Source: Paludibacteraceae bacterium
GTDB lineage: Bacteria; Bacteroidota; Bacteroidia; Bacteroidales; Paludibacteraceae
NCBI GenBank assembly: GCA_017503075.1
Contig: JAFVTU010000012.1
Coordinates: 124,001 to 188,000, forward strand
Reading direction: 5' to 3'
Length of the DNA stretch: 64,000 nucleotides
A program made the position numbers and the translations under genes. The notes under the pieces are model-generated. The model saw only the letters and a list, made by a program, of their open reading frames with translations, was not told where the DNA came from and made no database searches. This document shows positions 3,184-32,947 of this stretch, piece by piece; position 1 is the stretch's first letter, and each line of letters starts with the position of its first letter.

Positions 3184-4327
3184 ATACTATCTCTTGTTTG
3201 GTTAATATCAAATCTATCACATCATCCGAAGTGTGCGGATTGCTATTCAAGCGTTGCTGCTGCAACATCCTATTTCTAAATACTTTATCTTCACATAATC
3301 GCATGGCTATTGCTACTTGTTGGTTGGTGTCGTTACTATGATACGACAAGCCATGATTATGAAAAAATCGTGCATTATAGTTCTCTAGACCAGGAATAGG
3401 AGCGGTATGAACTATAGGAATATTCTTGACTATTGCCTCGGTGGAAGTGATACCACCGGGCTTAGTAAAGATCACATCCGAAGCGTCCATCAATAGCGAC
3501 ACTTGATCAGTGAAGCCCAATAAACAGAGTTGTTTATCGTTGGCAAAGGTTGTTTGCAGGTTGTCATACATCTGTTGGTTGCGACCACAAACACAAACCA
3601 CCTTATCTTCCTTACGGATACGCATCAACAACTGATGCATCAGCGCGTCAAGATTGCCATATCCCATAGAGCCAGACATAATTAAATACCAATGTCCACT
3701 ATTCGTAGTCCAATCATGAAGTCCGAGCGTATCTGCCAACAGTTGGCGTGCTTGACGTTTGGGCTTACGAGTGATGAATTTCTGCTCATCTACAGGAATA
3801 CCTATCGGCACCAACTTCTCGCGAGGCACACCTTTCTCCACAAACTCCTCCACCAAATGCTCGTGCGGAATAATGTAGTAGTCTAAGTCTGTTTCTGCTA
3901 AGAAAGGGATGCAGGTATAGTCGGTCATTACAAAATAAGTAGGAATCTGCAACATGGCGTTGCGACGCAGAGCAGTCATCGCCTCTGCAGGAAAGAGGTG
4001 TACGCACACCACCACATCATATGCACCATCACGAATATGTTCGTACAAGGTATTAGCATACATACGATTAACGCCATAAACGAGCGATTGATGGAAGTCG
4101 ATATTATCACTCACGAAACCACCAATCTTATACACCGTTTCAAATAATGCACCTTGTGTAGAAGAGACGTACGCATTAGCTACACGCTGCGATAGTTCAT
4201 CACTGACCAATGCCAATGTATCTTGGATATCGCACACTATACCGCGCCTATCCATGGCTATCTTCAGTGCCTTTGCACAGGAATTGTGCCCCTCTCCTGT
4301 ATTGCATGAAAGAATTAAAATTTTCAT
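3173..4327 (-). CDS. MGDG synthase/UgtP-type glycosyltransferase (GT28)
   Basis: A 384-residue GT-B fold enzyme. The N-terminal SCNTGEGHNSCAKAL is the typical start of the monogalactosyldiacylglycerol synthase domain. The C-terminal half holds the UDP-sugar site, with MSGSMGYGNL and IFTKPGGITSTEAIV. Members transfer glucose or galactose from UDP-sugar to diacylglycerol at the membrane surface. No transmembrane helix is visible, as expected for a peripheral enzyme. It is first in a two-gene minus-strand unit and convergent with the phosphatidyltransferase-GtrA pair. Acceptor and sugar are unproven. I could not find a clean consensus promoter upstream. Confidence 0.85.
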   Translation of the reverse strand: MKILILSCNTGEGHNSCAKALKIAMDRRGIVCDIQDTLALVSDELSQRVANAYVSSTQGALFETVYKIGGFVSDNIDFHQSLVYGVNRMYANTLYEHIRDGAYDVVVCVHLFPAEAMTALRRNAMLQIPTYFVMTDYTCIPFLAETDLDYYIIPHEHLVEEFVEKGVPREKLVPIGIPVDEQKFITRKPKRQARQLLADTLGLHDWTTNSGHWYLIMSGSMGYGNLDALMHQLLMRIRKEDKVVCVCGRNQQMYDNLQTTFANDKQLCLLGFTDQVSLLMDASDVIFTKPGGITSTEAIVKNIPIVHTAPIPGLENYNARFFHNHGLSYHSNDTNQQVAIAMRLCEDKVFRNRMLQQQRLNSNPHTSDDVIDLILTKQEIVYEE

Positions 4328-29676: not shown

Positions 29677-30054
29677 TCAAGGTTTCATGCGCTGGTGGAG
29701 TTGGGCGATGACAAAACCGCGAAGGGTGGTATAGCGTTTTTGGTTGGGTTGGGGATGTTTGAACTGGCGCTCGAAAAGCGGTTGCCAGTAAGCGAGGCGG
29801 TCAGGGTCGCTCAGTTCTTGTTTAGCAAGCGTTTGGACTTGCTGAAAAAGAAGGCGGTTATTCGTGGCACCCTCCGACCATTTGCCTTCGTGGCGATGAT
29901 AGACGTAGGTTTCGCCTGGCCCATAGACAGGTCTGCCTTTGGCATCCTTGCCATAGCATTTGCGACGAGAAACAATGATACGACCATCCGCGTTGCGGGA
30001 TGAAATCTTGCCAGTGAAGTTCTCAACTGGAGCGATGTAGGTGGTTTGAGACAT
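29677..30054 (-). CDS. Conserved-looking hypothetical protein
   Basis: A 125-residue soluble, basic protein without signal peptide. Visible segments include GKISSRNADGRIIVSRRKCYGKD, cut here as YGPGETYVYHRHEGKW in the centre and YTTLRGFVIAQLHQRMKP at the end. I do not recognise the family or a catalytic motif; the His/Arg-rich middle could bind nucleic acid. Its start codon is preceded by heptamers with core AAYTCAT, as at thyA. A run through this locus shows no mobile-element signature. Confidence 0.55.
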   Translation of the reverse strand: MSQTTYIAPVENFTGKISSRNADGRIIVSRRKCYGKDAKGRPVYGPGETYVYHRHEGKWSEGATNNRLLFQQVQTLAKQELSDPDRLAYWQPLFERQFKHPQPNQKRYTTLRGFVIAQLHQRMKP

Positions 30055-30317: not shown

Positions 30318-30349
30318 TTTGCATTATTCAATAAATTTCACTACCTTTG
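30318..30349 (+). promoter_or_regulatory. Promoter of the structured RNA
   Basis: TTTG (30318-30321), 20 bp, TACCTTTG (30342-30349). The transcript would start near 30356, over 300 nt before the next gene, and meet a terminator at 30587-30612. Confidence 0.85.
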
Positions 30350-30355
30350 CAACCG

Positions 30356-30612
30356 CAAAGCAAATAGCAGAAGATAGTAACTATAATAATGAGTAACTGC
30401 AAACTGCTTTGCAGACATATTTAATATAGCGTTATAAGCCCAAACTTGATTCATTGAAAACTGGACACTTTCAATAATCATTTATTCTTCAAGTACGGTT
30501 TATGCACGCTCATGCTTTCAGCGTGAGTTTTCCGTGCGTAGATTTGAAGAATAAAGGTAGTCCAGAACCTCAATGAATCAAATTGAAGCGAACGAAAGTT
30601 CACGCTTTTTTC
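30356..30612 (+). ncRNA. Structured non-coding RNA candidate (rod-shaped, own terminator)
   Basis: Stems in order: CTGCAAA/TTTGCAG hairpin (30397-30403/30408-30414); closing stem TTGATTCATTGA/TCAATGAATCAA (30446-30457/30570-30581); CTGGAC/GTCCAG (30461-30466/30560-30565); an asymmetric bubble of 14 nt against 4 nt; TTTATTCTTCAA/TTGAAGAATAAA (30481-30492/30544-30555); and a tip hairpin CACGCT/AGCGTG. The last element is a GAAA-loop hairpin AGCGAAC/GTT-CGCT followed by TTTTTT (30587-30612), an intrinsic terminator. A possible 11-codon frame begins at 30389. It does not match RNase P, tmRNA, SRP RNA or a riboswitch I know; the closed rod with a one-sided bubble recalls 6S RNA. Confidence 0.7.
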
Positions 30613-30676
30613 TGTCTATATACCCCATCGCCATAGCAAAATAAACAACAATACTAACTCATAAAAGTAAATGATT

Positions 30677-32947
30677 ATGAAAAAACATTTATCTTCATTA
30701 TTCTCCACCCTTCAAGGGGGAAGTAGATGGGGGCTTCTTTTCGTGGCACTCCTCGCCACCACCGCCCTCTGGGCGCAACGTTTCCAATCTGATAACCTGT
30801 ACTACCGCATCACCAGCAGTTCCGCACCTTGTACCGTGGAGGTGACATATGAATATAATTCATCTGATAACAACTACTCTGGCCTTACCACTGCCACTAT
30901 CCCCGAAACAGTCACGTACAACGGCACCACCTACAGCGTAACGAGCATTGGAGATGATGCTTTCTGGGGTTGCTCCTCCCTCACCTCCGTTACTATTGGC
31001 AACAGCGTGACGAGCATTGGATATGAGGCGTTCCTTAATACAGGTATCTACAACAATGAGTCCAATTGGGAGAATGGTGTACTCTATATCAGCAACTGCC
31101 TAATAGATGCAAAAAATAACATAACAGGCGCATATACCATTAAGGGTGGCACACGAGTGATTGGATATAAGGCTTTCTCTAATTGTTCCTCCCTCACCTC
31201 TATCACCATCCCCAATAGCGTAACGAGCATTGGGAAATATGCTTTCTCTAGTTGCTCCTCCCTCACCTCCGTCACTATTGGCAATAGCGTAACTAGTATT
31301 GGATATTATGCTTTCGATAATTGCTCCGCACTTAACAAAACTAATTTTACAGGTGACATTGCGGATTGGTGTATGATAAAATTTGATGGTTACTCTGCCA
31401 ATCCAATCTCTATCTCCCGTAATCTATACCTCAATGATATTGAAGTAAAAGAACTAATAATCCCAAACAGTGTGGATACTATTTATGAGTATGCTTTCGA
31501 TAATTGCTCTTCCCTCACATCGGTCACGATAGGCAACAGCGTCACTAGCGTAGGAAATAGTGCATTCTATGGTTGCTCTGCTCTTATCTCTGTTACCATA
31601 GGAAACAGCGTAACGAGCATTGGAGAGCGGGCTTTCTCTGGTTGCTCCGCACTTAACAAAACTAATTTTACAGGTGACATTGCGGATTGGTGTATGATAA
31701 AATTTGCAAGTTCCTCTGCCAATCCAATCTCTATCTCCCGTAATCTATACCTCAATGATATTGAAGTAAAAGAACTAATAATCCCAAACAGTGTGGATAC
31801 TATTTATGAGTATGCTTTCTATAATTGCTCCTCCCTCACATCGGTCACGATAGGCAACAGCGTCACCAGCATAGGGTATAGAGCATTCTATGGTTGCTCT
31901 TCTTTGACCGCGGTGACTATCGGTGCAAGTGTCACCAGCATTGAAAGTAGTGCATTCGAAGTTTGTAATTCATTAGATAAATTCATTTGCTACAGCAAAA
32001 CACTAACAGAGTTTGGCGGATTAAAGTTGTCAGCAAATATAAATATAGATACAGTAGTTGCACCTGCAATATTTTTTGACATTCCTGAAAATATTTGGGC
32101 TAGTGCACCAAAATCCATTTCATATGCAGAAGTTGTGGCAGGTGAACTCACTACGGATGCTTTTGGATTTATCAATCGCAGCTATAAAACTCTACGTACA
32201 CTCGACCTTGCTGCCACTACCAACACTACTATCGCAGAGGAAGCATTCAAAAACTGCTACAAGTTAGAGAACCTGATGCTGCCTTCACAACTAGAAACAG
32301 TGCCATATATGGCTGTAGCAGAGTGTGTGAAGCTTCAGTCTATCACTATCCCTGCTACCGTTACCGAGATTGCAGACCGTGCTTTCGAGAACTGCCGCAG
32401 TATCAAATCCATCATCTTTGAGGGCGCAGAACCCGCACAAAGCCCTGCACGTCACGCAGCAGCCAGTGGTTCGGCACTCTGGCGCATTGGCAGTTGGGCG
32501 TTCTACAACTGCCACCAGTTAGAAGACCTCACTATCCCTGAAGGCGTGACCGAAGTGGGCGATGCGGCTTTCTATGGTTGCAGTTACCTCACAGATATGA
32601 CCCTGCCAAGCACCATACAATCCATCGGCGACAATGGCTTCGCACTCTGCGCTAAACTGCAAAAGATTTATGTGAACGCCCTCACACCGCCTACTATCCA
32701 AGCCAAGACTTTCTACGATGTCAATCGTCAGATACCTGTATATGTGCCAGATGAAGTAGTCGATGCATATAAGAGCGATCCTTATTGGAAGGAGTTCAAT
32801 ATCCAAGGCAAGAGCAATGCACCTACGGCAGTAGAGAATATCGGTGCGGGTAACAAAGCCGATGCGCAAAAGATAATGCGCAACGGTCAACTCCTCATCC
32901 TGAAGGACGGAAAAACGTACAATGTAGTTGGTCAAATAGTAGAGTAA
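30677..32947 (+). CDS. BspA-like leucine-rich-repeat surface protein
   Basis: A 756-residue secreted protein built of LRR_5 (Treponema pallidum-type) repeats of 23 residues, e.g. AFYNCSSLTSVTIGNSVTSI, the fold used by BspA adhesins. The signal peptide (to ALWAQ) contains an odd insert, TLQGGSRWG, encoded by a GGGGGAAG repeat element. Repeats at ~215-315 and ~322-420 come from a recent 322-bp DNA duplication. The C-terminal tail NGQLLILKDGKTYNVVGQ matches the amylase tail at 10043 and may direct type IX export. ATG at 30671 is an alternative start two codons upstream. Confidence 0.9.
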   Translation: MKKHLSSLFSTLQGGSRWGLLFVALLATTALWAQRFQSDNLYYRITSSSAPCTVEVTYEYNSSDNNYSGLTTATIPETVTYNGTTYSVTSIGDDAFWGCSSLTSVTIGNSVTSIGYEAFLNTGIYNNESNWENGVLYISNCLIDAKNNITGAYTIKGGTRVIGYKAFSNCSSLTSITIPNSVTSIGKYAFSSCSSLTSVTIGNSVTSIGYYAFDNCSALNKTNFTGDIADWCMIKFDGYSANPISISRNLYLNDIEVKELIIPNSVDTIYEYAFDNCSSLTSVTIGNSVTSVGNSAFYGCSALISVTIGNSVTSIGERAFSGCSALNKTNFTGDIADWCMIKFASSSANPISISRNLYLNDIEVKELIIPNSVDTIYEYAFYNCSSLTSVTIGNSVTSIGYRAFYGCSSLTAVTIGASVTSIESSAFEVCNSLDKFICYSKTLTEFGGLKLSANINIDTVVAPAIFFDIPENIWASAPKSISYAEVVAGELTTDAFGFINRSYKTLRTLDLAATTNTTIAEEAFKNCYKLENLMLPSQLETVPYMAVAECVKLQSITIPATVTEIADRAFENCRSIKSIIFEGAEPAQSPARHAAASGSALWRIGSWAFYNCHQLEDLTIPEGVTEVGDAAFYGCSYLTDMTLPSTIQSIGDNGFALCAKLQKIYVNALTPPTIQAKTFYDVNRQIPVYVPDEVVDAYKSDPYWKEFNIQGKSNAPTAVENIGAGNKADAQKIMRNGQLLILKDGKTYNVVGQIVE
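31320..31912 (+). repeat. Segmental duplication inside the BspA-like gene
   Basis: About 270 bp at 31320-31590 recur nearly unchanged at 31642-31912 (offset 322 bp). Differences cluster in a few codons after AAATTTG and at the ends. This is DNA-level identity well beyond what the protein repeat needs. Confidence 0.88.

Follow-up and report, generated by a model that had tools for sequence, protein, structure and literature searches.

A conserved rod-shaped RNA class of Bacteroidota and its candidate role as an attenuating leader of exported-protein genes

The window, a stretch of 64,000 nucleotides from a Paludibacteraceae bacterium, encodes a conserved rod-shaped RNA whose stems are under selection. 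Model searches place this RNA in a class that spans several orders of Bacteroidota, with many copies per genome in part of that range. On balance, the genomic arrangement of the copies argues that the RNA is probably a cis-acting leader, one of a structured class, that attenuates a downstream gene for an exported protein. The best reading of its competing helices is a co-transcriptional attenuator, which would be coupled to the ribosome in part of the class.

Architecture of the RNA and its locus

The initial annotation of this locus listed three perfect stems (12, 6, and 12 bp), a one-sided bubble, a cap hairpin, a promoter, and a GAAA terminator, all of which are present in the sequence. These features lie on the forward strand. 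The promoter, of Bacteroidetes type and also retrieved by the promoter-pattern listing of the window, consists of TTTG (30318–30321), a 20-nt spacer, and TACCTTTG (30342–30349). The RNA begins at ~30352 and contains an upstream hairpin, H1 (CTGCAAA-CTGC-TTTGCAG, 30397–30414), crossed by an 11-amino-acid ORF (ATG..TAA, 30389–30424). The annotated length of ~255 nt stands approximately, as promoter to T-run measures ~260 nt; the accompanying statement that no gene lies inside must be qualified by this short ORF. Many copies elsewhere are preceded by hairpins that differ in their letters from H1 of the window, as judged by eye.

The rod proper extends from 30446 to 30581. Covariation supports all three main stems: the 12-bp P1 (30446–30457 with 30570–30581), for which swap tests speak as well, the 6-bp P2 (CTGGAC, 30461–30466, with GTCCAG, 30560–30565), and the 12-bp P3 (30481–30492 with 30544–30555). 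Between P2 and P3, a 14-nt one-sided 5′ bubble (30467–30480) is opposed by GGUA only. The 3′ strand of P2 lies in the segment 30556–30569, where it is preceded by GGTA and followed by AACC; the GGT and ACC that flank it can pair with each other (hairpin B). Pair counts define the apical part, composed of P4 (30499–30508 with 30533–30542; 10 bp, including two G-U pairs) and P5 (30509–30514 with 30522–30527). A possible closing helix, P0, would join AGCGT (30428–30432) to ACGCT (30602–30606). The AGCGT strand is nearly invariant among close copies (by eye), and because of this near-invariance the support that P0 draws from its own variation is weak, with a swap-test z of −4.3 in other genera.

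The element ends in an intrinsic-terminator-like hairpin with a GAAA loop and a run of six T residues (30586–30611; −7.1 kcal/mol). Downstream, at 30671–32947, lies the presumed regulated gene, an ORF for a BspA-like protein that matches Pfam LRR_5 (E 1.8e-113) and has a signal-peptide-like N-terminus by a crude signal rule. The gene-like ORF upstream of the window copy lies on the opposite strand. Two small proteins encoded upstream of two copies, at 29677–30054 (−) of the window and at 3595–4008 (−) of locus L035, have N-termini that look alike by eye and match no Pfam family. Directly before the promoter, the segment 30140–30250 carries imperfect short repeats around TTGTGCGTCTATTG.

Fold strength and covariation of the rod

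The transcript region 30352–30620 folds with a minimum free energy (MFE) z-score of −7.8 and the rod with −8.2; in both cases, none of 200 shuffled sequences folded as well. The window has a single case of nested 11-bp inverted repeats at this spacing, whereas 20 first-order Markov simulations of it have none.

An alignment of 28 sequences has 93.0% of its stem cells paired (82.1 ± 0.5 shuffled) and contains 139 double-sided changes versus 39.6 in shuffled alignments, with 22 of the 46 base pairs changed on both sides; slid controls reached at most 41.3% pairing. A second alignment, from other genera, was fitted to the covariance model and comprised 85 rows, two of which are wrong-strand matches. 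Its 83 distinct rows are 90.9% paired, against at most 46.3% in slid controls, and double-sided changes affect 41 of the 46 pairs, in 855 cells versus 271.5 after shuffling. P2 illustrates the compensatory pattern, occurring as CUGGAC/GUCCAG, UUCGAC/GUCGAA, and CUAGAC/GUCUAG types. P4 is a weak helix, paired in 69.1% of cells in other genera, and G-U pairs are common throughout that alignment. The annotation had argued that such stems need selection and had named compensatory changes in relatives as the check; the heavy stem covariation in the 28-sequence and 83-row alignments confirms this view.

Distribution of the class

In a BLAST search, the element found matches in 30 of 36 further genomes of its genus, limited in G028 to the promoter part, and in 1 of 24 genomes from other families, over 35 nt at the promoter part. 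From 168 places, we extracted 140 distinct full-length close copies, drawn from same-genus genomes and from pattern matches whose genus is not confirmed; depending on the flanks or motifs required, 129, 128, 121, or 108 of them entered a given count. The pattern matches in named genomes were, among the matches listed, mostly to metagenome-assembled genomes (MAGs) of Paludibacteraceae or ‘uncultured Bacteroidales’, many from ruminant or horse guts; a few of the listed records carry other, unconfirmed labels (a cyanobacterium, Brevundimonas). The genome that contains the window is accordingly of a gut-type Bacteroidales.

A first covariance model, built from 28 close copies, had matches (E ≤ 0.001) for 76 of 150 genomes and 25 of 33 genera of a family sample, as many as 18 of them in a single genome, and for 48 of 247 genomes and 39 of 173 genera of an order sample. 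A second model matched 37 of 395 genomes and 18 of 171 genera of a phylum sample. These E-values are rough, computed without decoy genomes, and searches of more than 40 genomes ran under stricter filters; two wrong-strand matches, at 23.9 and 25.5 bits, mark the noise level. The window’s own genome contains six copies by the first model and eight by the second.

For comparisons outside the close copies, we used a divergent set of 77 of 83 loci. Four loci near contig ends (L274, L281, L286, and L320) were excluded by hand, as were L247 and L289, for no good reason; L251 and L253 are absent too. L268 and L297 are one place entered twice, so that counts over 77, 76, and 47 contain one duplicate.

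Genes and promoters around the copies

The copies lie on the same strand as, and shortly before, a gene. A co-oriented ORF starts within 400 nt downstream of 105 of the 108 close copies with enough flank, compared with 39 divergent starts upstream. An ORF of at least 80 amino acids starts within that distance of 117 of the 140 close copies (median 74 nt), and about half of the remaining 23 are at contig ends. In other genera, an ORF follows the RNA in 76 of 77 loci, mostly ~80–130 nt past the rod (by eye). Both sets of copies (105/108 and 76/77) hence occupy the same-strand 5′ position expected of an attenuator or riboswitch leader.

The downstream products are largely of exported type. By a crude rule, signal-like N-termini were found in 82 of 103 downstream ORFs of at least 150 amino acids (79.6%). 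The figure for 883 control ORFs of the same loci is 33.9%; this control set was not restricted to real genes, and the downstream genes are themselves counted in it. In other genera, 57 of 76 are signal-like (56 of 75 without the duplicate) and 31 also have a lipobox-like motif, versus 7 and 2 of 30 controls. Exceptions that are not exported include ABC-transporter and restriction-type genes (by eye). Co-oriented placement before genes that mostly encode secreted proteins or lipoproteins favours a leader RNA.

A promoter of the window copy’s kind is not general. Among close copies, 37 of 129 have the −33/−7 pattern upstream (15 and 9 in the controls); in other genera, 33 of 76 copies do (2 and 2 in the controls). 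The genes upstream of close copies (e.g., L034 3916–4230 and L036 896–1363) are often small accessory ORFs; among those scanned, two match KilA-N and DUF3990, and the others match no Pfam family.

A second, different structured RNA occurs in the own genome at 1768–2020 of locus L036 (C29), with its own TACCTTTG promoter, a hairpin, GACATATTAACATAGC, and long complementary arms. It precedes a gene for a sulfatase-type membrane protein (by eye) and has no Rfam match. Of 41 genomes of the genus, 26 match parts of it, some at the promoter only.

A third strand predicted to compete for the P1 5′ strand

The 14-nt bubble complements the P1 5′ strand, and the two can form an alternative hairpin, A. 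We compared duplex energies of each copy’s own strands with those of strands swapped among copies, using 123 unique sequences of the 140 close copies. P1 itself averaged −14.56 kcal/mol versus −7.88 ± 0.19 after swapping, and the duplex of the bubble with the P1 5′ strand −8.21 versus −5.70 ± 0.14 kcal/mol. The same test in other genera gave z = −29.6 for P1 and −5.4 for the bubble; since swapping leaves relatedness in place, such z values cannot be read as probabilities. In 78 rows from other genera, hairpin A was paired in 86.9% of cells (83.1 ± 0.7 expected) and showed 20 both-sided changes versus 8.6. The P1 5′ strand thus keeps complementarity to two competing partners, which suggests a switch.

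MFE folds of the window RNA at growing lengths pair the P1 5′ strand with the bubble from 30481 to 30561, partially from 30511 to 30531, and with the P1 3′ strand from 30581 on. From this order of folds, strand exchange is predicted ~25 nt ahead of the T-run. A putative hairpin B, in which AGGU and ACCU flanking P2 would pair, would turn P2 into a kissing loop.

RNA 3′ ends and helices that cross the T-run

Close copies and copies from other genera differ at their 3′ ends. In close copies, the terminator-like hairpin has a median energy of −6.6 kcal/mol, 92.6% of 121 reach −4 kcal/mol or lower, and T-runs of mostly 4 to 6 follow. Among 75 copies from other genera, only 16% have a hairpin this stable, and the T-runs are longer, mostly 5 to 7. 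In these genera, two helices reach beyond the T-run: P-1, which pairs bases past the T-run with the H1 3′ arm and its surroundings (z −11.3), and P6, which uses a strand beyond the T-run (z −10.1). Two loci lacking the T-run pattern were dropped from these swap tests, and in close copies neither P-1 (z 1.2) nor P6 (z 0.9) is supported. Forty copies with a mini-ORF gave z = −5.0 for H1 and −9.7 for P-1, which share a strand, and 0.1 for a control pairing. This suggests a switch-like competition, in related genera, between the upstream hairpin H1 and a helix crossing the T-run. Mutually exclusive conserved pairings, as expected of an attenuator, were accordingly found twice, as P1 versus hairpin A and, in other genera, as H1 versus P-1.

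Some tails from other genera (e.g., L272, L294, and L301), taken from the RNA to the start codon, contain a compact motif, CGGA..NNN-GAAAA-UCCG..AGAGUAG-NNN, that resembles an H-type pseudoknot. This CGGA/UCCG motif is present in 22 of 77 loci, and its 3-mer finds a complement in its own tail in 19 of the 22, versus 11.2 ± 1.8 after swapping.

A two- to three-codon reading frame ahead of the rod

The motif GCCTATG is found upstream of 47 of the 76 copies in other genera (46 of 75 without the duplicate), 46 of them 52–89 nt before the rod, compared with 2 downstream and 0 on the reverse strand as controls. A stop within three codons, ATG included, follows in 42 of the 47 (41 of 46 without the duplicate) versus 12.5% of 472 control ATGs, and TAA, TAG, and TGA are all in use. 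The resulting 2–3-codon ORF, AUG-X(-X)-stop, often ends directly before H1. GCCTATG also occurs in 25 of 129 close copies (controls 0 and 9), 18 of which have a stop within three codons versus 9.0% of 708 control ATGs. The window copy has no GCCTATG mini-ORF; its 11-amino-acid ORF through H1 is of another type and occupies the same place as the mini-ORF of many copies in related genera, a match by position only.

Proposed mechanism

The annotation described the RNA as free-standing and named a leader that terminates before the BspA-like gene as its alternative. An own promoter, a terminator-like end, and the rod do hold for the window copy. Its free-standing nature is doubtful in view of the 105 of 108 co-oriented ORFs with their signal-like N-termini, and further so in view of the pairing strands conserved past the T-run in related genera. 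The leader is the better fit, given the placement just before start codons and the exported products.

In the attenuator that we propose, the nascent RNA would first form hairpin A from the P1 5′ strand and the bubble, and exchange it for P1 once the 3′ strand emerges. In the lineage of the window, closure of the rod would pair AGCGT with ACGCT in competition with the terminator hairpin; closing of the rod, or its failure, may then set read-through. In related genera, a ribosome terminating at the 2–3-codon ORF would sit on the 5′ arm of H1 and free the 3′ arm for the long-range helix P-1. The output in either case would be termination or read-through. Several observations weigh against this attenuator: the window copy lacks the mini-ORF, P-1 and P6 find no support in close copies, the terminator hairpin is mostly lost in other genera, many close copies follow a co-oriented ORF with no recognised promoter, one downstream gene has an orthologue that does without the RNA, and some of the downstream genes are not exported. 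A bolder version, possible if doubtful, is a Bacteroidota-wide riboregulator in which the 2–3-codon gene is a ribosome sensor: the terminating ribosome would mask a hairpin arm and pick between two strand-exchange folds of the rod, and the state of translation would be the one signal that sets the output of a scattered regulon, made up of exported and surface proteins. If a leader role is right, a large RNA class that is not in Rfam 15 would control cell-surface content in a dominant phylum of gut and rumen. The proposal is directly testable, as the copies are short, portable leaders for which on and off structures are predicted.

Alternative explanations

The main rival is a trans-acting sRNA, whether by itself or as a side product of the leader. 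Such a multicopy sRNA would end at the T-run and act elsewhere by base pairing or protein binding, its position near genes being incidental. The promoter and terminator-like end of the window copy and the stable terminator hairpins of nearly all of the 121 close copies suit an sRNA, whereas the lack of a recognisable promoter in many close copies does not. The most distant relatives lend it some support, as 8 of 9 phylum-level loci have a TAnnTTTG box ~30–100 nt upstream and most have a T-rich stretch behind the rod (by eye), and genomes outside the order that match the second model carry only 1–3 copies. Multicopy sRNA families are also known in Bacteroides, as the main text on FopS reports (PMC11697453). 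An RNA acting in trans would not, however, account for the strong same-strand bias directly before start codons or for the P-1 and P6 strands conserved beyond the T-run in other genera, and we rate it as unlikely.

We consider it very unlikely that the copies are DNA-level mobile or recombination sites, whose hairpins would work as folded DNA and which would have spread before surface genes. The element is multicopy, and several copies lie near contig ends. One outer membrane protein (OMP) gene is preceded by the RNA in the own genome, whereas its orthologue in the closest relative found (L191) is not, with no model match at E 0.1; that gene therefore does not need the RNA. Another orthologue (L192, 1270–1490) has, in the same place, an unrelated leader of promoter, hairpin, structure, and T9 (by eye), which matches only itself among 63 genomes. 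Comparison with these two loci revealed no clean insertion boundary. A recombining site would also be at odds with the fixed orientation, the short distance to start codons, the promoter- and terminator-like parts, and the common G-U pairs, and there was no match in viral contigs to one exact pattern or in phage and plasmid collections by nucleotide similarity. Two specific element types were dropped, in a survey of neighbouring genes that was not systematic: integron attC sites, with no array or integrase beside the copies whose genes were read, and IS605/OMEGA-type elements, with no nuclease beside those copies.

In the lineage of the window, the RNA might instead be the end-of-transcript structure of an upstream accessory gene. 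A co-oriented ORF of at least 60 amino acids ends within 300 nt upstream of 106 of 128 close copies (median 101 nt), and 82 of the 128 combine such an ORF with no recognised promoter. This co-operonic reading is very unlikely: the window copy has its own promoter and an upstream gene-like ORF on the other strand, and many copies in other genera have a promoter and a mini-ORF.

The 6S-type RNA suggested by the annotation, a rod that would hold RNA polymerase by imitating an open promoter, agrees in outline, internal bubble, and length (~260 nt) and is most improbable in view of 6–8 copies in the genome, a one-sided bubble complementary to P1, gene-proximal placement, and no Rfam 6S match.

Comparison with known systems

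6S RNA has one gene, rarely two, per genome and a large central bubble that resembles an open promoter; it binds RNA polymerase and templates product RNAs. The window RNA shares with it (Rfam 6S; RF01685) the rod outline with an internal bubble, and differs in being multicopy, in a one-sided bubble able to re-pair with P1, and in matching no 6S model. The covariance search that the annotation proposed, against Rfam with its 6S models, gave no match at the window element, and no Rfam 15 family matched it or 16 related loci; at a permissive E-value only chance-like matches appeared, the top-scoring of which was Phe_leader, with 22.5 bits where the gathering score is 55. In nine phylum-level loci, the sole Rfam match was a chance-like one to a microRNA, off the element, and no 6S model matched. 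A search of the own genome with 6S-Flavo (RF01685) gave no match, with controls silent too, so the 6S RNA of this genome is not located. Bacteroides has a validated 6S RNA according to the main text of PMC7366714.

Bacteroidales-1 RNA (RF01693) is also a structured Bacteroidales RNA of similar size. Its sole match in the own genome is elsewhere (C30:68280–68480, L031; 70.8 bits), with none at the window element, and membership was rejected. FopS, by the main text of its report, is a multicopy Bacteroides sRNA family with canonical promoters that has been deposited in Rfam (PMC11697453). Like FopS/GibS, the window class consists of multicopy paralogous Bacteroidales RNAs linked to surface-protein expression. 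According to the same text, FopS acts in trans and consists of a single-stranded 5′ region and one terminator hairpin, whereas the window class is a long covarying rod in cis. Membership of FopS/GibS was rejected, as a long covarying rod was found in place of the unstructured 5′ seed and single terminator hairpin described there.

Further candidates were compared by the descriptions in main texts alone. HMP2_4205 and HMP2_1032 are structured Bacteroidetes RNA candidates of 106–132 bp with predicted terminators near genes, described as palindromic, a point of apparent difference from the window RNA (PMC8040213). Rfp18 of Flavobacterium psychrophilum resembles it as a conserved structured RNA linked to secreted proteins, with a reported effect on secreted proteases, and is presented as an independent sRNA; the transcriptome of that species includes 64 structured 5′ regions (PMC9723704). 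The main texts of the literature consulted, including PMC11697453, PMC7366714, PMC9723704, PMC8040213, a survey of 104 motifs (PMC2864571), and a Porphyromonas reannotation (PMC5771137), contain no recognisable description of the element.

A parallel of a general kind is with transcription attenuators and riboswitch leaders, which likewise have a structured 5′ leader, mutually exclusive pairings, and a T-run before the gene. The window class differs from these in the ORF of only 2–3 codons in many copies, in having no known ligand, and in a regulon of exported proteins, with as many as 18 copies of the RNA in one genome. If our reading is right, it would add to the known sensing modes of leaders a three-strand exchange and, in many genera, a near-minimal reading frame.
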